This document shows positions 46,689 to 57,135 of a stretch of 64,000 nt of DNA, piece after piece (the stretch's first letter is position 1; the number at the start of each line of letters is the position of its first letter). This DNA comes from Clostridium beijerinckii (lineage in GTDB: Bacteria > Bacillota > Clostridia > Clostridiales > Clostridiaceae): the NCBI RefSeq assembly GCF_036699995.1, contig NZ_CP144906.1:1984001-2048000 (forward strand), given 5' to 3'. A program made the position numbers and the translations under genes. Under the pieces are notes generated by a model, which was not told the DNA's origin, ran no database searches, and was given only the letters and a program-made list of their open reading frames with translations.

Positions 46689-47687
46689 ATGAGTGTCACT
46701 ATAAAAGATATTGCAAAATTAGCGAATGTTTCTCATACAACGGTGTCTAGAGCACTTAATAATAGTCCTTATATTAATGAAGAAACCAAGGTTAAAATTA
46801 TGGCTTTAGCAAAAGAATTGAATTATGTACCAAATTATAGTGCTAAGAGTCTTGTTCTATTAAAATCATACGTTATAGGAGTATTTTTTTCATCAATTAG
46901 CGAAGGAACATCAGATACATTCTTTCATGAAATTATAAGAGGAGTTAATAATGTCATAGATAAAGAATATAATTTGGTTGTAAGAGGTATAGATGATTAT
47001 CAATATTCTCACTTAATTGATAATAGAAATTTTGATGGAATAATCGTTGTAAGCCAAAGTAAAAATGACGATGAATTTATACAAACTATTTTAGAGAAAA
47101 ATATACCAACTGTAGTTATAAATAGATATATTGAAAATGAAGGACTAGTAAACATAATGTCAGATGATACAAAAGGAGTTTATGATGCAGTTACTTATTT
47201 TATAGAGAATAATCATAGGAAAATAGCATTATTGCAAGGAAATAAGGAATTTGAATCAACAGTATATAGAAAAAGAGGATATATAAGAGCGTTAGAGGAT
47301 AATAATATTCCGATTAATGAGGAATATATTTTAAGTGGTAGATATGACCTTAAAAGTGGATATGAGAATATGAAAAAGTTACTTAAATTAGAGAATGTTC
47401 CAACAGCAGTATTTTGCGCTAATGATGATATTGGGGTAGGGGCTATGAAAGCAATATTTGAAGCTGGGTTAAAAGTTCCAGAAGATATCTCAATTATAGG
47501 GTTTGATGATAGCAACTTTTGTAACTATGTAACTCCTCCATTGACAAGTGTGAGGAAGGATTCTTTGGCGATGAGCGAATATGGCGGAAGAAACTTATTA
47601 AATCTTATAAAGAATAAAGAAGTAGATAAAGAAAAAGTTTATATACAATCTCAGCTTGTAGTAAGAAAATCAGTAAAAAAACTTTAA
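46689..47687 (+). CDS. LacI-family regulator of the hexuronate locus
   Basis: 332 residues from the ATG at 46689 (MSVTIKDIAKLANVSHTTVSRALN); an upstream start would add 18 residues before the helix-turn-helix. The N-terminal HTH (about 4-25) and hinge are typical, followed by a periplasmic-binding-like sugar domain. It is directly before the first of two promoters that each carry three palindromic operators; it is therefore the likely repressor of both, released by a hexuronate or a pathway intermediate. This is inferred from position and operator form. Confidence 0.87.
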   Translation: MSVTIKDIAKLANVSHTTVSRALNNSPYINEETKVKIMALAKELNYVPNYSAKSLVLLKSYVIGVFFSSISEGTSDTFFHEIIRGVNNVIDKEYNLVVRGIDDYQYSHLIDNRNFDGIIVVSQSKNDDEFIQTILEKNIPTVVINRYIENEGLVNIMSDDTKGVYDAVTYFIENNHRKIALLQGNKEFESTVYRKRGYIRALEDNNIPINEEYILSGRYDLKSGYENMKKLLKLENVPTAVFCANDDIGVGAMKAIFEAGLKVPEDISIIGFDDSNFCNYVTPPLTSVRKDSLAMSEYGGRNLLNLIKNKEVDKEKVYIQSQLVVRKSVKKL

Positions 47688-47737: not shown

Positions 47738-47751
47738 TGTTAACGTTCACA
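47738..47751. promoter_or_regulatory. Operator/cre-like site upstream of the uxaC promoter
   Basis: TGTTAACGTTCACA, eight bases before the -35. It fits the LacI-type operator of this locus and also differs from a cre box (TGWAANCGNTNWCA) at only one position, so it could be bound by CcpA. Confidence 0.62.
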
Positions 47752-47759
47752 AAAAAGTG

Positions 47760-47788
47760 TTGCGTTATTTGAAATATGATATTATAAT
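47760..47788 (+). promoter_or_regulatory. Promoter P1 of the uxaC operon
   Basis: TTGCGT and TATAAT with a 17-bp spacer. Transcription should begin near 47795. Confidence 0.78.
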
Positions 47789-47814
47789 AAAGTTATCAAG
47801 TAGATACAAGAAAA

Positions 47815-47860
47815 TGTTCACGTGAACAGGAATTTGCACGTATTTTTGTTCACGTGAACA
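47815..47860. promoter_or_regulatory. Two perfect palindromic operators downstream of P1
   Basis: TGTTCACGTGAACA occurs at 47815-47828 and again at 47847-47860, 32 bp apart (three turns), in the untranslated leader between the start point and uxaC. A repressor bound there could block elongation or loop to the upstream site. Confidence 0.82.
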
Positions 47861-47882
47861 AAAAAGAAAAGAGGATTTTGAT

Positions 47883-49283
47883 ATGAAAAAGTTTATGGAT
47901 GAAAATTTTTTATTAAGCAACGAAGTATCTGAAAAATTATATCATAATTATTCAGAAAAAATGCCAATTATTGATTATCATTGCCACATTAATCCGAAGG
48001 AAATATTAGAAGACAAAAAGTTTGAAAATATAACTCAAGTATGGCTTTATGGTGATCATTATAAATGGAGACAGATGAGAACTTTGGGCATAGATGAAAA
48101 ATATATTACAGGAGATGGAAGTGATTATGAAAAGTTCTTAGCTTGGGCAAAGACTATATCATTAGCTATCGGAAATCCACTTTATCATTGGACACACTTA
48201 GAACTTAAGAGATTCTTTGGAATAGATGAAGTTTTAAATGAAAAAAGTGCACCTGCTATTTGGGAAAAAGTTAATAAGCTGTTAAATAGCGATGATTTTA
48301 CAGTAAGAAATCTTATAAAGAAATCAAATGTAAAAGTGATATGTACAACAGATGATCCTATAGATTCATTAGAATATCATTTAGCAATAAAAGAAGATAA
48401 AAGCTTTGATGTGAAAGTATTACCAGCTTTTAGACCTGATAAAGCTCTAGGAGTTAATAAAGAAACATTTAAAGATTGGTTTAACAAACTAGAAGAAGTA
48501 GTTGGTTCTAAAATTTCAAACTTTGATGAATATTTAGAAGCATTAAAAAAGAGAGTGGAATATTTTCATGAAGCTGGATGTAGAGTATCAGATAATGCAT
48601 TGGATTTTGTTCCAGTAGGAAATGCTTCGTTAGAAGAAGTTAGAGAAATTTTTGCAAACGTACTTAAAAATGGACAAGTATCTTTTGAAGATGAAAATAA
48701 ATTAAGAGTATATATATTAAAGTTCTTTGGAAAATTATATCACGATCTAGGATGGGTAATGCAATTTCACATGAATTGCGTTAGAGATAATAACAAAGTA
48801 ATGTTCGAAAAATTGGGACCTGATACAGGATTTGATTCACTTAATGACACAGAAGTTGCAATTCCACTATCAAGGTTATTAGATGCATTAAATAGTGAAA
48901 AAGCTTTACCTAAGACTATTATATATAGTTTAAATCCAAATGATAATTCTACAATAGGAACATTACTTGGATGCTTCCAAGGAGACGGAATTAAGGGCAA
49001 AATACAATTTGGATCAGCTTGGTGGTTTAATGATCACAAGATTGGTATGCAAGATCAAATTAGAACTTTAGCTAATTTAGGCATGCTAAGCACATTTGTT
49101 GGAATGTTAACAGACTCTAGAAGCTTTTTATCTTACACAAGACATGAATATTTTAGAAGAATACTTTGCAATGTAATTGGAGAATGGGTAGAAAATGGCG
49201 AGTTACCTAATGACATTGAACATTTAGGACAAATTGTAGCTGACATTAGTTATAATAACGCAGACAAATACTTTAATATGTAA
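47883..49283 (+). CDS. uxaC: Glucuronate isomerase (UxaC)
   Basis: Turns glucuronate into fructuronate and galacturonate into tagaturonate, the first step of hexuronate use. 466 residues, the usual length. Family patterns are IIDYHCHINPKEI near the start, VICTTDDPIDSLEYH, and the late GSAWWFNDHKIGMQDQ and TDSRSFLSYTRHEYFRR. It is first after P1 and its double operator. AGAGG lies close to the ATG. Confidence 0.95.
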   Translation: MKKFMDENFLLSNEVSEKLYHNYSEKMPIIDYHCHINPKEILEDKKFENITQVWLYGDHYKWRQMRTLGIDEKYITGDGSDYEKFLAWAKTISLAIGNPLYHWTHLELKRFFGIDEVLNEKSAPAIWEKVNKLLNSDDFTVRNLIKKSNVKVICTTDDPIDSLEYHLAIKEDKSFDVKVLPAFRPDKALGVNKETFKDWFNKLEEVVGSKISNFDEYLEALKKRVEYFHEAGCRVSDNALDFVPVGNASLEEVREIFANVLKNGQVSFEDENKLRVYILKFFGKLYHDLGWVMQFHMNCVRDNNKVMFEKLGPDTGFDSLNDTEVAIPLSRLLDALNSEKALPKTIIYSLNPNDNSTIGTLLGCFQGDGIKGKIQFGSAWWFNDHKIGMQDQIRTLANLGMLSTFVGMLTDSRSFLSYTRHEYFRRILCNVIGEWVENGELPNDIEHLGQIVADISYNNADKYFNM

Positions 49284-49290
49284 TCTTTTA

Positions 49291-49325
49291 TGTATGAAAA
49301 TAAGTGAGATGCTTATTTTCATACA
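49291..49325. repeat. Hairpin between uxaC and uxaB1
   Basis: TGTATGAAAATAAG (49291-49304) and its complement (49312-49325), no T run. Within one operon, it may stabilise or process the mRNA. Confidence 0.65.
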
Positions 49326-49370
49326 ATAATGCAAAGATACAGATGAAGTGAAGATTTAGGAGGAATAGCT

Positions 49371-50819
49371 ATGAAATTAAATAAGGAATTATATAAAGAA
49401 TTTAAAACATATCCAGAAAAAGTATTGCAATTTGGAGAAGGTAACTTTTTGAGAGCTTTTGTTGATTGGCAAATAGATAAAATGAATGATGAAGCAGATT
49501 TCAATGGAAGCGTTGTAGTTGTTCAGCCATTAGAAAATGGTCTTGTGGACATGCTTAATGATCAAGATTGTCTATACACTTTATATTTACAAGGGGTTCA
49601 AAATGGGCAAGCATCAAAAACTCATAAAGTAATCAATAGTATAAGTAGGGGAATTAATCCTTACAGAGACTATAATGAATATTTAAAAGTTGCAGAAAAT
49701 CCAGAATTAAGATTTATAGTGTCAAATACAACAGAGGCAGGAATTGCATTTGATGAAAACGATACTTTAAATGGAGGATGTCAAAAAAGTTATCCAGGTA
49801 AGCTAACAGCATTCTTATATCACAGATTTAATGCATTTAATGGAGATGACAGTAAGGGATTTATTATAATTCCGTGCGAGCTTATTGATAGAAATGGTGA
49901 AAAACTTAAAGAAATAGTATTAAGATATGCAGAAGTATGGAACTTAGGACAAGACTTTATTGATTGGACAAACAATGCTAATACTTTTTGTTGTAGTTTA
50001 GTTGATAGAATAGTGCCAGGATATCCAAGAGATACAATTGATGAGGTTAGAGAAGAGCTTGGATATGATGATAATTTAGTAGATGTAGGTGAAATATTCC
50101 ACTTATGGGTAATAGAAGGTCCTCAGTCTATAAAAGATGAATTACCAATAGAAAAAGCTGGACTTAATGTAAAAGTTGTAGATGATATGACACCATATAG
50201 AACAAGAAAAGTTAGAATTTTAAATGGGCCTCATACAGCAATGGTTCCAGTAGCATATCTTTATGGTTTAGAAACTGTAGGGGAAGCGGTTGATCATGAG
50301 GTTATAGGAAGATATGTCCATGATGTAATATATGATGAAATTATAGAAACTTTAGATTTGCCTCACGAAGAATTAGTGGAATTTGCAGATGCGATTATAG
50401 AAAGATTTCAAAATCCATATGTAAAGCACTATTTAATGAGTATAGCATTAAATTCATTATCTAAATATAAAACAAGAGATTTACCAAGTTTAACTGAATA
50501 TCTAAAGAGAAAAGGTACACTTCCTAAGAAATTAGTATTCTCCCTTGCATCTTTAATAGAATTCTACAAAGGAAAAAGAGGAGACGAAGACATTCAATTA
50601 ACTGATGATGAGGATATATTAGAATTATTTAAGAAATTATGGGAAAAATACGATGGAACAAAAGAAGGCCTAAACAAAATTGTAACTTCAGTTCTTGGGT
50701 ATGAAAAGAATTGGGGAATCAATTTAAATGAAATTCCTAATCTTGCTGATGAGATTTCAAGATATTTAGAAATAATTGAAAAAGTAGGAATGAAGGAAGC
50801 TGTTAAAGTAGTTTTATAA
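49371..50819 (+). CDS. uxaB: Tagaturonate reductase (UxaB), first copy
   Basis: Reduces tagaturonate to altronate with NADH. 482 residues with [17 protein letters not shown] at the start (Rossmann part), [27 protein letters not shown] and [15 protein letters not shown], as in E. coli UxaB. A close second copy lies at 54108; residues 203-382 are identical in the two. GGAGG precedes the ATG. Confidence 0.94.
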
Positions 50820-50828
50820 TGAAATTTA

Positions 50829-50864
50829 TTATCGTGCAATTAAATTTTCTTAATTGCATGATAA
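50829..50864. repeat. Hairpin between uxaB1 and the HIT gene
   Basis: TTATCGTGCAATTAA (50829-50843) and TTAATTGCATGATAA (50850-50864) pair with a single mismatch around a six-base loop; no T run. Confidence 0.62.
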
Positions 50865-50898
50865 GTAAATATATATCAATAATAAAGGAGGTAAATAA

Positions 50899-51321
50899 AT
50901 GAGTTTTGATGAAAATTGTTTTTATTGTTCAAAGAATCAAGATTTAGATTCTTTAATGATTAAGATTTGTGATTTAGATGTATCAACAGTATATTTGTTT
51001 AAGGAACAAACTTATGGTGGAAGATGCAATGTTGTTTATAAGGAACATAAGAGTGAAATTGCGGATTTAACTGAAGAGGAAGCAGCAGCTTTCATAAATG
51101 ACGCTAGAAAGGTAGCTAAAGCAATCCATAAAGCCTTTAATCCAGATAAAGTAAATTATGGAGCATTTGCTGATACTATGAAACATCTTCATCTTCATAT
51201 TGTACCTAAATATGAAGGCGGCCCATCTTGGGGAAAAACTTTTGAGATGAATCCACAAAAAATATATTTAAGTGATGATGAGTACCAAAACCTAATTTGT
51301 AAAATAAAAGATAATTTATAA
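50899..51321 (+). CDS. HIT-family protein in the hexuronate operon
   Basis: 140 residues. The histidine triad is HLHLHIVPK near the C-terminus, and an N-terminal CFYC pair suggests metal binding. HIT enzymes hydrolyse or transfer nucleotides (AMP derivatives, nucleotide sugars). It lies between uxaB1 and the transporter gene, downstream of P1; its link to sugar acid use is unexplained. AAAGGAGG precedes the ATG. Confidence 0.86.
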   Translation: MSFDENCFYCSKNQDLDSLMIKICDLDVSTVYLFKEQTYGGRCNVVYKEHKSEIADLTEEEAAAFINDARKVAKAIHKAFNPDKVNYGAFADTMKHLHLHIVPKYEGGPSWGKTFEMNPQKIYLSDDEYQNLICKIKDNL

Positions 51322-51374
51322 TATTGGATTAATGAATAAAAAATTAACTAAATTAAAGATACGGAGGAAAAGGA

Positions 51375-52781
51375 ATGTTAAATTCTGTTGACAAAAACGC
51401 ATCAACTAATGCTAATAATGGAAACGTTAAATTAAGTTTAAGAGAGAAAATTTCTTACGGTTTTGGAGATTTTGGTAATGGATTTATGTTTGACTTAGGT
51501 CAATCATATCTTACAAAGTTTTTTATAGATACATGTGGAATTAGTGCTGGAGCAGTTGGTGGTATATTTGCATTTACAAAAATATTCGATGCATTCATGG
51601 ATCCATTAGCAGGATCATTGATAGATAGTAGAAAAGCAGGTAAATCAGGAAAGTTTAGACCTGTAATGATGATTTCAAGTATAATTCTTGCTTTACTTAC
51701 AATTATTACTTTTACTATGCCTGAGATGCCGCTTTCATCTAAGATTATATATGGTTATGCAACATATATGATTTGGGGGCTTGTATATTCATTCACTAAT
51801 GTTCCTTACGGATCATTAGCATCGGTTATGACAAGAGATGTAGAGGATAGAAGCCAATTAGCTACATTTAGACAAGCTGGTTCATTAGGAGCACAATTAA
51901 TAACAGGGGTAGCTTTTGTACCTATTCTTATGATGTTTAGTGATAAAAAAGTTGGTTATCCAGTTGCAGCTGCAGTTATGGCTGTTATAGGAGTTATTTC
52001 ATTCTTTATCTGTTTTGCAAACACAAAAGAACACGTTGTAGTTAACAGAGAAGGTAAATCAGAAAAGGCATCTGCTAAAGATTATTTTAAAGTTGTATTT
52101 ACAAACAGACCATTATTATGTTTAATTCTTATGCAATTATTTACAATATCAGCTATGAATACTAACAACCAAATGATGATTTTCTTCTGCCAATATAACT
52201 TAGGAGATATTGCACTTCAACCAAAAGTTAATGGTATAATGATTGGATGTTCTGTAATTGGTATATTTGCTATTCCATTCTTAGTAAAGAAGTTTGGTAA
52301 AAAGAAAACTGCAATTACAGGATTAGTAATTGGAATTATTGCAAATGGATTAAACTTTGTAATACCAACAAATGCTACTACTTTCACAGTTCTTGTTACA
52401 ATAGGATATGTAGCACTAGCTATTCCAAATGGAGTAACTTGGGCATTTGTTACAGATGCAATTGACTACGGTCATTGGCATACTGGAATAAGAAAAGAAG
52501 GCGTGACTTATGCTGCATTCAACTTTTCAAGAAAGATAGCTCAATCAATCGCTGCGCTTGTTAGTGCAAGTGTATTAGGTATGACTGGATATGTTGCAAA
52601 TGCACAACAAAGTTCAGAAACATTGTTAGGAATTAAGGGAGCAATGACATTGTATCCAGCAGTAGCTTTAGCTTTAGCTGCTCTTGTAGTAGGTATATTA
52701 CACAACTTACCAGATGACAAGTACAGAAAAGTTGCTCAAGATTTACAAGAAGGAAAATGGGAAAAAGGAATATTAGAATAA
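51375..52781 (+). CDS. GPH-family hexuronide/sugar symporter (UidB/MelB-like)
   Basis: 468 residues with 12 likely membrane helices. The family start is SYGFGDFGNGFMFDLGQSYL, and DAFMDPLAGSLIDSRK and DAIDYGHWHTGIRKEGVTYA follow, as in the glycoside-pentoside-hexuronide:cation symporters. It probably imports glucuronides or hexuronates for the enzymes of the same operon. GGAGG precedes the ATG; the terminator at 52825 ends the operon. Confidence 0.9.
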   Translation: MLNSVDKNASTNANNGNVKLSLREKISYGFGDFGNGFMFDLGQSYLTKFFIDTCGISAGAVGGIFAFTKIFDAFMDPLAGSLIDSRKAGKSGKFRPVMMISSIILALLTIITFTMPEMPLSSKIIYGYATYMIWGLVYSFTNVPYGSLASVMTRDVEDRSQLATFRQAGSLGAQLITGVAFVPILMMFSDKKVGYPVAAAVMAVIGVISFFICFANTKEHVVVNREGKSEKASAKDYFKVVFTNRPLLCLILMQLFTISAMNTNNQMMIFFCQYNLGDIALQPKVNGIMIGCSVIGIFAIPFLVKKFGKKKTAITGLVIGIIANGLNFVIPTNATTFTVLVTIGYVALAIPNGVTWAFVTDAIDYGHWHTGIRKEGVTYAAFNFSRKIAQSIAALVSASVLGMTGYVANAQQSSETLLGIKGAMTLYPAVALALAALVVGILHNLPDDKYRKVAQDLQEGKWEKGILE

Positions 52782-52824
52782 TAATTATATAAATAAATCA
52801 TTGATATTTAGCTAAGAATAATGA

Positions 52825-52867
52825 AACACTATCAACTCTCAAAATATAAGTTGATAGTGTTTTATCT
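52825..52867 (+). terminator. Terminator of the uxaC operon
   Basis: AACACTATCAACT (52825-52837) and its complement (52849-52861), followed by TTTATCT. Confidence 0.85.
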
Positions 52868-52909
52868 TTATATATTGAGTAAATAAAAAGATATATACTT
52901 GTAAAAAAC

Positions 52910-52960
52910 TGTTAACGTTCACAAAAAAGTATTGCATATTTTTTGATTTGATACTATAAT
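52910..52960 (+). promoter_or_regulatory. Promoter P2 with upstream operator, second hexuronate unit
   Basis: TGTTAACGTTCACA at 52910-52923, then eight bases, TTGCAT (52932-52937), a 17-bp spacer, and TATAAT (52955-52960). Layout and sequence repeat P1 at 47738-47788 almost base for base. Confidence 0.8.
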
Positions 52961-52993
52961 GTAAATATAACTTAAATAATTTTTAACTAAAAT

Positions 52994-53038
52994 TGTTCAC
53001 GTTAACAATTGTTCGACCTCTAATTGTTAACGTGAACG
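52994..53038. promoter_or_regulatory. Two operators downstream of P2
   Basis: TGTTCACGTTAACA (52994-53007) and TGTTAACGTGAACG (53025-53038), 31 bp apart, variants of the perfect palindromes after P1. The pair presumably binds the same LacI-type regulator. Confidence 0.75.
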
Positions 53039-53085
53039 AAAAATGCTTTGATATATAAATAAGCTATAAACTTATTTAATATATA

Positions 53086-53213
53086 ACACAGTTCTTAAAA
53101 ATACAGAAAATCAGTAATATAGACTTTAAAATAATATAGAATTCTTCAAACCCATAATTTTCATACTATAATTTATTAATAATATTTTAAGTTAACCATT
53201 TTAAGAACTGTGT
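53086..53213. repeat. 128-bp segment bounded by perfect 15-bp inverted repeats
   Basis: ACACAGTTCTTAAAA (53086-53100) and TTTTAAGAACTGTGT (53199-53213) enclose 98 AT-rich bases with no gene. It may be a leader RNA stem or a small MITE-like element. Another hairpin, TAGTTTAAAA/TTTTAAACTA, lies at 53291-53319. The stretch 52782-53410 holds otherwise only the terminator and P2 region. Confidence 0.6.
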
Positions 53214-53410
53214 ATTTAATTAATAGTGATAGCGCAAAATAGATTTGTTAAGAAATAAATGTTTGAAATTATAATATATATTCTAAAAAATAGTTTAAAA
53301 TACTATGAATTTTAAACTAGTTGATATTCTAAAGAATAATTTTATTATCTAAAACCTGTATATATATTTATTATAAAGATATTAATTAAAAAAGAATTTG
53401 AGGTGTAATA

Positions 53411-53775
53411 ATGAGAAGGAAAGAAGTTTTAGGTGATTATGATCTAGTTCAAAAGATGATGTAGCAGATTTTTTCTTAAATAAGGAAGCGAAAATAGTCG
53501 CAGTAAAATTAGGGCCAGAAGGATGCTATATAAAAGATAAAAAAGAAGGAGTCAAGGTCGCAGGATATAATGTATCAGATTTAATTCAAGATACAGCTGG
53601 GGCAGGCGATGTTTTTGCAGCTGGATTTTTAGAAAAATTATCACTAAACGAAATTGGACAATATGCTAACGGTGTTGGAGTTATGGCAACATTGGTACAA
53701 GGAGATATGGAAGGTTATCCATATTATGATCAACTGATGGAATTCATAGGAAAGAGACAAGGTGTTGAAAGATAG
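53411..53775 (+). pseudogene. Remnant of 2-keto-3-deoxygluconate kinase (PfkB family)
   Basis: An ATG with GAGGTG opens a 17-codon frame that ends in TAG at 53462. From about 53443 another frame runs to TAG at 53773-53775 and encodes about 110 residues: KIVAVKLGPEGCYIKDKK, the PfkB signature DTAGAGDVFAAGFLEKL and a C-terminus typical of KDG kinases. About 190 N-terminal codons are missing and a frameshift lies near 53451. In this operon the expected gene is kdgK, which makes KDPG from the UxaA product, so the pathway's kinase step is lost here unless another copy exists. Confidence 0.85.
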
Positions 53776-54107: not shown

Positions 54108-55556
54108 ATGAAATTGAACAAGAAACTATATAAAGAATTTAAGACTTACCCTGAAAAAGTGCTACAATTTGGGGAAGGAAATTTCCTAAGAGCATTTGTT
54201 GATTGGCAAATTGACAAAATGAATGAAGAAGCAGGTTTCAATGGAAGTGTCGTAGTCGTTCAGCCTCAAGAAGGTGGACTAGTTAATATGCTAAATGAAC
54301 AAGATGGCTTGTTTACACTTTATCTTCAAGGAGTTCAAGGAAAAAGAGCTATAAAAACACATAAAATAATCAATAGTATAAGTAGAGGAATTAATCCATA
54401 TACAGATTATAATGAATATTTAAAAGTTGCAGAAAATCCAGAATTAAGGTTCATAGTGTCAAATACAACAGAGGCAGGAATTGCTTTTGATGAGAATGAT
54501 AAGTTAAATGAAGGATGTCAAAAAAGTTTTCCCGGTAAGTTAACTGCATTTTTGTTCCGTAGATTCATGGTGTTTAATGGTGACAATAGTAAAGGTTTTA
54601 TTATAATTCCATGTGAGCTTATTGATAGAAATGGTGAAAAACTTAAAGAAATAGTGCTAAGGTATGCAGAAATTTGGAATTTAGGACAAGATTTTGTGGA
54701 TTGGATAAATGATGCTAATACTTTTTGCTGTAGTTTAGTTGATAGAATAGTTCCAGGATATCCAAGAGATACAATTGATGAAGTTAGAGAAGAACTTGGA
54801 TATGATGATAATTTAGTAGATGTAGGTGAAATATTCCACTTATGGGTAATAGAAGGCCCTCAGTCTATAAAAGATGAATTACCAATAGAAAAAGCTGGAC
54901 TTAATGTAAAAGTTGTAGATGATATGACACCATATAGAACAAGAAAAGTTAGAATTTTAAATGGGCCTCATACAGCAATGGTTCCGGTAGCATATCTTTA
55001 TGGTTTAGAAACTGTAGGGGAAGCGGTTGATCATGAGGTTATAGGAAGATATGTCCACGATGTAATATATGATGAAATTATAGAAACTTTAGATTTGCCT
55101 CACGAAGAGCTAGTAGAATTTGCAGATGCGATTATAGAAAGATTTCAAAATCCATATGTAAAGCATTATCTAATGAGTATAGCATTAAATTCATTATCTA
55201 AATACAAAACAAGAGATTTACCAAGTTTGACTGAATATCTAAAGAGAAAAGGGGCGCTTCCTAAGAAACTAGTATTCTCCCTTGCATCTTTAATAGAATT
55301 CTACAAAGGAAAAAGAGGAGACAAAGACATTCAATTAACTGATGATGAGGATATATTAGAATTATTTAAGAAATTATGGGAAAAATACGATGGAACAAAA
55401 GAAGGCCTAAACAAAATTGTAACTTCTGTTCTTGCGTATGAAAAGAATTGGGGAAGTAATTTAAATGAAATTCCTAACCTAGCTGATGAAGTTTCAAGAT
55501 ATTTAGAAATAATTGAAAAAGTAGGGATGAAGGAAGCTATAAAAGAAGTTATTTAG
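54108..55556 (+). CDS. uxaB: Tagaturonate reductase (UxaB), second copy
   Basis: 482 residues, the same enzyme as the copy at 49371. Compared with it there are about 27 differences in residues 1-202, none in 203-382, and about eight in the last 100; the matching DNA is also near-identical in the core. The pattern suggests gene conversion after a duplication. AGGAGG precedes the ATG. It comes between the broken kdgK and uxaA, downstream of P2. Confidence 0.94.
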
Positions 55557-55647: not shown

Positions 55648-57135
55648 ATGAAAGAAATTATAAAAATAAATGAAAAAGACAATGTTGTAGTAGCGCTTAG
55701 AGATTTGTCTAAAAGTGAAATTATAGAAGTTGAAAATAAAAAAATAGAAATAAAAGAAGACATAAAAAGAGGCCACAAAGTAGCTATATCAGACTTTAAA
55801 GTTGATGACAATGTAATAAAGTATGGATATCCAATAGGACATGCTATTAAAGATATATCATTAGGAGAATGGATTCACACGCATAATATTAAAACAAATT
55901 TGGATGGAATTATGGAATATAATTTTAATCAACAGCTAAAGCAAGTTTCTATAGAAAATAGAAATCTTACTTTTGATGGATATAAAAGAGCAAATGGTAA
56001 TGTTGGTATAAGAAATGAACTTTGGATAGTACCAACTGTTGGGTGCGTTAATGGAATTGGTGAAAGAATAATCGAAAAATTCAAAGAAGATGTAAAACCT
56101 GTTGGAATCGATGGAGTTGAAATTTTTAAACATAATTATGGATGCTCTCAATTGGGAGATGATCATGCAAATACAAGAACTATGCTTGGAAATTTAGTAA
56201 AGCATCCTAATGCTGGAGGCGTGTTAGTACTTGGACTTGGTTGTGAAAATAATACAATGGCTGAATTTATTGAGTCATTAGGAGAATATGATACAACTAG
56301 AATTAAATTTTTAGTATCACAGGAAGTTTCTAACGAGATAGAGGAGGGCGCCAAAATATTACGTGAGCTTTATGAAAATATGAAAGATGATAAGAGAGAA
56401 TCAGTATCTCTATCAAATTTAAAAGTTGGATTAAAGTGCGGTGGTTCAGATGGGTTCTCGGGAATAACCGCAAATCCTCTTGTGGGTAGTTTTTCGGATT
56501 TCTTAGTTGCACAAGGTGGAACAACAATACTTACTGAAGTTCCTGAGATGTTTGGTGCGGAAACAATTCTTATGAATAGAGCTAAAGATAATGAAACTTT
56601 TGATAAAACTGTACATTTAATAAATGATTTTAAAGAATATTTCATGGCGTATAACCAGCCTATATATGAAAATCCTTCTCCAGGAAATAAAGCTGGTGGA
56701 ATTACAACATTAGAGGATAAATCTTTAGGTTGTACACAAAAATCAGGAGATTCAACAGTTGTAGGTGTATTAAAATATGGTGAAACTTTAAAAACTAATG
56801 GATTAAATCTTTTAAGTGGACCAGGAAATGATTTGGTTGCAGCCTCAGCTTTAGCGGCAGCTGGTTGTCATATGGTTTTATTTACAACAGGTAGAGGAAC
56901 ACCATTCGGTACATTTGTGCCAACAATGAAGATATCAACAAATACTCCATTATATGATTTAAAGCCACATTGGATGGATTTTAATGCAGGAACTTTAGTT
57001 GAAGATAAAACTTTAAGTGAAGTAACAGAAGAATTTATAAAATATGTGATTGAAGTGGCTAATGGGAAATATGTAAATAATGAAATTAATAAATTTAAAG
57101 AGTTAGCTATTTTAAAACAAGGTGTTACTTTGTAA
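55648..57135 (+). CDS. uxaA: Altronate dehydratase (UxaA)
   Basis: Dehydrates altronate to 2-keto-3-deoxygluconate. 495 residues: an N-terminal SAF-like domain (about 1-95, with GHAIKDISLGEWIHTHN) and a C-terminal catalytic part with NYGCSQLGDDHANT, LGLGCENNTM, CGGSDGFSGITANP and GCTQKSGDS, including the Cys expected to bind iron. It is the last gene of the second unit and completes the route from hexuronate to KDG. Confidence 0.95.
   Translation: MKEIIKINEKDNVVVALRDLSKSEIIEVENKKIEIKEDIKRGHKVAISDFKVDDNVIKYGYPIGHAIKDISLGEWIHTHNIKTNLDGIMEYNFNQQLKQVSIENRNLTFDGYKRANGNVGIRNELWIVPTVGCVNGIGERIIEKFKEDVKPVGIDGVEIFKHNYGCSQLGDDHANTRTMLGNLVKHPNAGGVLVLGLGCENNTMAEFIESLGEYDTTRIKFLVSQEVSNEIEEGAKILRELYENMKDDKRESVSLSNLKVGLKCGGSDGFSGITANPLVGSFSDFLVAQGGTTILTEVPEMFGAETILMNRAKDNETFDKTVHLINDFKEYFMAYNQPIYENPSPGNKAGGITTLEDKSLGCTQKSGDSTVVGVLKYGETLKTNGLNLLSGPGNDLVAASALAAAGCHMVLFTTGRGTPFGTFVPTMKISTNTPLYDLKPHWMDFNAGTLVEDKTLSEVTEEFIKYVIEVANGKYVNNEINKFKELAILKQGVTL

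Follow-up and report, generated by a model that had tools for sequence, protein, structure and literature searches.

The window analysed here, a stretch of 64,000 nucleotides (nt) from the single-contig, 5,552,291-base (5.55 Mb) genome of Clostridium beijerinckii, contains a hexuronate locus in which two promoter regions, P1 and P2, each carry three copies of one short palindromic site: O1, upstream of the –35 hexamer, and O2 and O3, in the leader. This six-site, two-promoter layout is real, and the three copies at each promoter are probably binding sites of one neighbouring sugar-sensing repressor. We put at roughly 0.6 the probability that P1 and P2 form a local hexuronate regulon under the repressor encoded at 46689, in which O2 and O3 obstruct the leader and the target of O1 is RNA polymerase. 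Such a regulon would amount to an operator code, open to testing, for how solvent-producing clostridia use pectin and hexuronates, in which one short motif accompanies one regulator across genomes of the genus.

Two Promoter Regions with Three Sites Each

All sites lie on the forward strand and were read directly. At P1, O1 (TGTTAACGTTCACA, 47738-47751) stands 8 nt before the –35 of a predicted core promoter, TTGCGT-17-TATAAT (–35 at 47760-47765, –10 at 47783-47788), and it is followed in the leader by two exact palindromes, TGTTCACGTGAACA, O2 at 47815-47828 and O3 at 47847-47860, 32 base pairs (bp) apart from start to start and near +27 and +59. At P2, the same O1, TGTTAACGTTCACA (52910-52923), again 8 nt before the –35, precedes the predicted promoter TTGCAT-17-TATAAT (–35 at 52932-52937, –10 at 52955-52960), O2 (TGTTCACGTTAACA, 52994-53007, about +34) and, 31 bp further on, O3 (TGTTAACGTGAACG, 53025-53038, about +65); the start sites behind these four leader positions are inferred from the –10. 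Five of the six sites fit TGTTNACGTNNACA exactly, and the sixth, at 53025, has one mismatch. A sequence-only reading of this DNA had described the six sites, both promoters and all of the spacings (8 nt; 17; 31-32 bp), as well as an exact palindrome twice at P1 and variants at P2, and direct reading bears this out. Its description of the two units as near-identical holds from O1 to the –35 (26/29 nt) but not over the 59 nt that end shortly beyond the –10 (45/59), nor for the leaders, which have little in common beyond the sites.

Exact matches to TGTTNACGTNNACA number eight, counted by strand, at five places in the window and none in 100 dinucleotide shuffles, and the same five places are the only ones in the whole genome. 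The signal stops there: with one mismatch the genome holds 19+24 matches, fewer than the 139+151 of a reversed-pattern control, and with two mismatches the window holds 20, which is near chance (mean 13.2, standard deviation 4.9; 8 of 100 shuffles reach 20). One-mismatch matches fall at 27 places outside the locus, and among the six that were read with their neighbours (L090-L095) five lie within an open frame and one (L092) between frames. A looser 16-base pattern with two mismatches also stayed below its control in this genome (100+116 vs. 412+408), and for this reason no further targets are named here from the matches listed. A promoter scan returned 56 promoter-like sites where 56.3 were expected, and it picked up neither P1 nor P2; the hexamers alone are therefore no evidence, and the two promoters rest on their conservation in the units of relatives.

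The Regulator at 46689 and the Site Motif in the Genus

The regulator (46689..47687, forward strand, 332 aa) belongs to the LacI/GalR family and carries a LacI helix-turn-helix (HTH) together with a periplasmic-binding-like sugar domain (PF00356 and PF13377, both above cut-off), and even palindromic sites with a central CG lie near its gene. It matches 19 NCBIfam families, each below the curated cut-off, and it is 97% identical to its counterpart in Clostridium beijerinckii HUN142. Of 68 genomes of the genus that were searched, 18 had a match at E 1e-60, and 16 hold an orthologue (72-100% identity, window included); G008 and G057, which hold only a paralogue of 45-47%, were counted as being without the regulator. 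Motif counts were drawn from 67 genomes. Of the 16 genomes that have the regulator, 15 contain the motif TGTTNACGTGAACA, as against 1 of the 51 that do not (Fisher 7e-13, relatedness not controlled), the exceptions being G031, which bears the regulator and lacks the motif, and G037, which shows the reverse. The O1-type motif TGTTAACGTTNACA follows the same trend, in 11/16 and 5/51 genomes, respectively (Fisher 1e-5, relatedness likewise uncontrolled).

Since the operator motif follows the regulator gene through the genus, there is good comparative support for linking the sites with the gene at 46689. The HTH stretch VSHTTVSRALN points the same way: it is invariant in all 46 orthologues printed (15 from the genus and 31 from outside, down to 54% identity) and altered in the L089 paralogue, so that the LacI-type protein first suggested as the binder keeps its place as the predicted one. 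The paralogue itself (45%; G000:C1:2736418-2737407, L089) adjoins KduI- and KdgT-family genes and is probably the regulator of the 2-keto-3-deoxygluconate (KDG) branch.

Geometry of the Unit in Relatives

When 28 units were aligned on the –35, O1 was found in 25, O2 in 25, O3 in 21 and all three in 16. Counting was restricted in several ways: L014 and L088 belong to one genome; near-duplicates are removed solely in the values so marked; L052:9140 and L053:7938, which stand alone, were not taken as units; an additional O1-bearing unit in L078 (G056) and the sites of L054 (6023/6054), which have no promoter in register, stand outside the 28; and O1 of L056_1, O3 of L051_1 and O3 of L088_2 have two mismatches to the search motif. 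The core promoter is conserved, with TATAAT as the –10 in 26/28 units, TTGCAT as the –35 in 18/28 and TTGCGT in 4/28, and the 9 nt before the –35 read AAAAAAGTG or AAAAAAGTA (AAAAAAGTR) in 18/28. The genes behind the conserved unit vary and may be uxaC, uxaB, the HIT gene or kdgA.

Two distances are fixed. From the start of O1 to the –35 there are 21-23 nt in all 25 units, and O2 and O3 are separated by 30-32 bp, about three helical turns, in 17 of the 18 measured pairs (23 in the other). The distance between O1 and O2, measured in 22 units, varies between 65 and 85 bp. This suggests that O1 goes with the promoter and that O2 and O3 go with each other, with at most a weak tie between the two groups. 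Evolutionary comparison alone tells two roles apart, those of a promoter-locked site and of a mutually locked pair.

Proposed Mechanism and Its Rivals

Because the O1 to –35 and O2-O3 distances are fixed and that between O1 and O2 is variable, O2/O3 are read as a cooperative block and O1 as a site acting on RNA polymerase. P1 and P2 would be sigma-70 promoters shut by the LacI-family regulator at 46689, which would be released by binding a sugar acid of the hexuronate pathway, its presumed effector. In the leader, two dimers would sit adjacent on O2 and O3, about three helical turns apart and presumably cooperative, and hinder RNA polymerase in leaving the promoter and in the first steps of elongation. 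O1, some 50 bp ahead of the start, in fixed register and beside an A-tract and a weak –35, would act on RNA polymerase; its effect is most likely additional repression by covering or touching the region of the alpha subunit, as GalR does at gal O_E, rather than the anchoring of a phased loop. A roadblock, which the sequence-only reading had considered, fits the leader positions at P1 (about +27 and +59) and P2 (about +34 and +65), but promoter calls in relatives are mixed: in some of 21 site regions the site also lies downstream of a predicted –10, at +27.5 in L060, +34.5 in L067 and +40.5 in L078.

The same reading had considered looping, in which contact between a dimer at O1 and one at O2 or O3 would enclose the promoter in a 77-115 bp loop, like GalR with HU at gal; this now appears quite improbable and is not favoured. 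In LacI the tetramer helix forms the C-terminus, and the regulator can be aligned with LacI no further than LacI residue 327 of 360, so that this segment is missing; a GalR-type loop closed with a helper protein is still conceivable. The O1-O2 distance is 77 bp at P1 and 84 bp at P2, a difference of 7 bp, and the O1-O3 distances, 109 and 115 bp, differ by 6 bp, while a gal loop requires operators on the same face of the helix (PMC4693257). Operators do flank the promoter as in gal, with a comparable O1-O3 distance (PMC4693257), and there is weak phasing on a 10.5-bp repeat: for all units the Rayleigh p is 0.03 from the –35 to O2, 0.07 from the –35 to O3, 0.09 for O1-O2 and 0.22 for O1-O3, and long spacings reach p 0.02 in a broader, redundant list. 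Without near-duplicates, however, the values for O1-O2 and O1-O3 rise to 0.25 and 0.35, and other genera give p 0.12. Looping is therefore not adopted as the reason for three sites, the spacing tests showing at most weak and no clear helical phase.

The main rival to the regulator acting at all three sites is kept in CcpA. O1 would then be mainly a CcpA catabolite-responsive element (cre), or be common to CcpA and the local regulator, and O2/O3 would belong to the local regulator alone, a possibility that we hold tentatively and as clearly the less probable one. A CcpA-bound O1, upstream of the –35, would sit in an activating position, whereas CcpA usually represses, and does not activate, sugar-acid catabolism; it is moreover a general regulator, whereas O1-type sites track the gene at 46689 in the counts given above. 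The fit to cre depends on the species taken as reference. The B. subtilis consensus WTGNNARCGNWWWCAW (PMC3463425) is matched without mismatch by O1 in 18/25 units, both O1 sites of the window included, and by none of 46 O2/O3 sites. The C. acetobutylicum core WTGWAAACGWTWWCAW (PMC5263246) is fully matched by no O1 (0/25), with one mismatch in 17/25 and two in 8/25, although O1 remains nearer to it (1-2 mismatches) than O2 (2-3) or O3 (2-5). In B. subtilis, a cre box that lies ahead of the –35 has an activating effect (PMC3463425), and the –35 here is weak; in addition, C. beijerinckii co-used galacturonate and glucose in the first 7 h (PMC7794554), a behaviour on which an O1 common to CcpA could bear. 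Conversely, O1 in three units is TGTTAACGTGAACA, the mixed form seen at O2/O3. Genome counts cannot decide between CcpA and the regulator at O1, because a strict cre-like pattern occurs in this genome exactly as often as its reversed control (4+4 in both cases).

Several observations weigh against the repressor mechanism proposed here. The systematic difference between O1 and O2/O3 in their fit to cre (18/25 vs. 0/46) is unexplained by a single binder, 12 of the 28 units are without one or more sites, and there may be some phasing between the promoter and O2 (p 0.02-0.25). In many of the 21 site regions the promoter calls are poor or lie upstream; even among the units, the –35 of L047_2 and L053_1 was set at the expected place (TTGCAT-17-TATACT read) and is absent from the top three of the scan, while in the other 23 O1 units it is within the top three, not always first.

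A Possible Hairpin in the Leader RNA

It is also conceivable that O2 and O3 are retained as the arms of a hairpin in the leader RNA, instead of or besides serving as DNA operators; both sites should be part of the transcript. Arms with 15-19 contiguous pairs occur in 9 of 15 non-redundant units, but two copies of one palindrome automatically give an inverted repeat. The flanks go beyond this: in the 15 units the inner flanks pair at 39/60 positions and the outer ones at 20/60, and O1/O2 control pairs have no such inner excess (20/52 and 23/52 in the genus, 17/56 and 26/56 in other genera). Arm-swap tests gave p 0.003-0.01, and the inner flanks 0.08 without near-duplicates, with relatedness uncontrolled throughout. 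L059 has a matched double change, and L055 and L057 have lost the central CG of O2 and kept most of the stem (in these two the O2 arm was assigned from its position and entered only the RNA tests). Whole-leader folds reach –20 to –27 kcal/mol in the seven leaders first chosen, figures without a shuffle baseline; against the hairpin, L047 (–15.8) and L051 (–9.4) fold weakly, L056_3 folds otherwise, and the leaders with one site (L050_2, L047_2, L048_2) reach only –8 to –14.5.

Between O2 and O3 of P2, at 53014..53020 on the forward strand, the heptamer CGACCTC would form the apex of the possible hairpin, and it stands in the same register in L045, L088, L055, L057 and L059. Exact CGACCTCNNATTGTTA has seven matches in 67 genomes, six at these units and one elsewhere (G049), with 19 one-mismatch matches elsewhere. 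It also weighs against the hairpin that the heptamer is absent from P1 and that, of the six units with it, three are closely related. Mirror operator pairs occur also in other genera where one arm overlies the promoter, and there was no Rfam match at the gathering score in six sources. An RNA hairpin layer is on balance unlikely. Slighter still is the chance that O2-O3 are read twice, as DNA operators and as an RNA hairpin with a CGACCUC loop in some units, with O1 common to the repressor and CcpA; if that were true, one 110-bp unit would join induction, catabolite control and a step at the RNA level.

Other Likely Targets and Other Genera

The regulator's predicted reach extends beyond the two promoters. 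In relatives, the motif also precedes genes for beta-helix and pectate-lyase-type proteins, a pfkB kinase, a GPH-type symporter and an ABC permease, and it thus points to lyases, transporters and a kdgK-type kinase as likely targets. Of 19 sites fetched elsewhere in relatives, 18 have the mixed form TGTTAACGTGAACA and one is an exact palindrome, a predominance that says little on affinity, or on the graded strength that the sequence-only reading had suggested for the two units, because the search pattern demanded one GTGAACA half. As separate observations, the motif stands 68-85 nt before a MATE-type exporter gene in L060, L062, L063, L068, L072 and L076, an unexpected target for a sugar-acid regulator (the call rests on Pfam for L060 and on a similar start for the other five), and O1-type sites in L081 and L082 precede the gene of a 998-aa protein.

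Outside the genus, 31 loci with a regulator of 54-63% identity were considered; uxa or symporter genes adjoin it in 30, the remaining one, L140, lying near a contig end, and a degenerate pattern finds one or more sites in 30, the exception being L145. In 8 of the 15 loci printed (L097, L098, L099, L100, L102, L103, L106 and L112) the upstream site contains TTGTTA, followed after 8 nt by TATAAT (TATTAT in L112); the other seven do not show it. Since the predicted core promoter is covered, this upstream site would be in the position of a repressor acting by steric block. Site pairs are 63-98 bp apart in 14 of the 15 listed and 115 bp apart in one, and none of the other-genus loci scanned for the degenerate pattern has three sites at one promoter. 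We also observed paired operators with their TGCACAC halves facing inward, as mirror images, in L100, L102, L103, L119, L122, L128, L130, L136 and L137, an arrangement without obvious reason; L134 has a direct pair instead.

Gene Content of the Locus

The genes of the locus all lie on the forward strand. The regulator is followed by P1, by uxaC for uronate isomerase (47883..49283; PF02614 and an NCBIfam equivalog above cut-off), by a first copy of uxaB for tagaturonate reductase (49371..50819; NCBIfam above cut-off), by the gene of a HIT-domain protein (50899..51321; PF01230) and by that of a GPH-family sugar:cation symporter (51375..52781; TIGR00792 above cut-off). Behind P2 lie a kdgA-kdgK remnant (53411..53772), the second copy of uxaB (54108..55556; NCBIfam above cut-off) and a gene of the altronate/galactarate dehydratase family, probably uxaA (55648..57135; PF20629, PF04295 and PF08666), whose product scores 295 bits against the galactarate dehydratase model, below the cut-off of 731. 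One uxaB copy thus stands behind each promoter, and the two longest repeat stretches have 87% and 79% DNA identity. After the symporter gene, at 52825-52861, a 12-bp stem with a 13-nt loop, then T-rich DNA, was seen by eye and may terminate the P1 transcript; a terminator scan of the window, made for loops of up to 8, reported none there.

In close relatives P2 precedes kdgA-kdgK-uxaB (L088) or kdgA-kdgK-uxaB-uxaA (L045). This strain has lost kdgA and about two thirds of kdgK behind P2, so that the second uxaB starts about 1.07 kb past O3; kdgK residues 217-327 match 53452-53772 at 87% with one internal stop, and kdgA has no tblastn match in the window at E 1e-3. By eye, the remnant consists of first codons like a kdgA start and a late kdgA stretch, then the last third of kdgK. 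The long P2 leader also contains, between O3 and the remnant, a 25-nt inverted repeat (84%) around 98 nt (53076-53223). A second kdgK-kdgA-like pair (40% and 44% identity) lies at genome positions 532914-534519, with no site within one mismatch near it among the matches listed.

Comparison with Known Systems

A conserved repressor switch is real here, and tandem 32-bp and triple LacI-type sites are of an already known kind. Judging by titles and the starts of abstracts, no description of this Clostridium system was found in the open-access literature, and no hexuronate regulon of Clostridium is named in the available text of the RegPrecise survey of LacI-type regulators (PMC4052901). In that survey, the distances between sites show maxima at 13, 22 and 32 bp, and three adjacent sites are recorded for 116 operons; the locus resembles these systems in its even palindrome with central CG, its tandem of about 32 bp and its groups of three sites, and differs from them in the fixed distance of the third site to the –35 (PMC4052901). 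With the LacI-family regulators ExuR, KdgR, UxaR and UxuR, named in PMC4052901, the regulator at 46689 shares its predicted control of galacturonate/glucuronate genes.

As to a block in the leader, a LacI roadblock placed 102 bp from a promoter blocked 73-96% in vivo, and measurements were made at 60 and 30 bp as well (PMC4132739). Compared with CcpA and cre, O1 is similar in its position ahead of the –35 and, in most units, in its agreement with the B. subtilis consensus, whereas O2/O3 do not fit and the regulator, at 167 bits against a cut-off of 442, is far below the CcpA model (PMC3463425; PMC5263246). In E. coli gal, GalR binds O_E at –60.5 and O_I at +53.5, 113 bp apart, and contact inhibition is drawn via the alpha subunit (PMC4693257). 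The present units are like gal in having a LacI/GalR protein, presumably dimeric, with sites on both sides of the promoter and outer sites 109-115 bp apart, and unlike it in having a pair of operators in the leader where gal has one, a single predicted promoter and no clear helical phase (PMC4693257).

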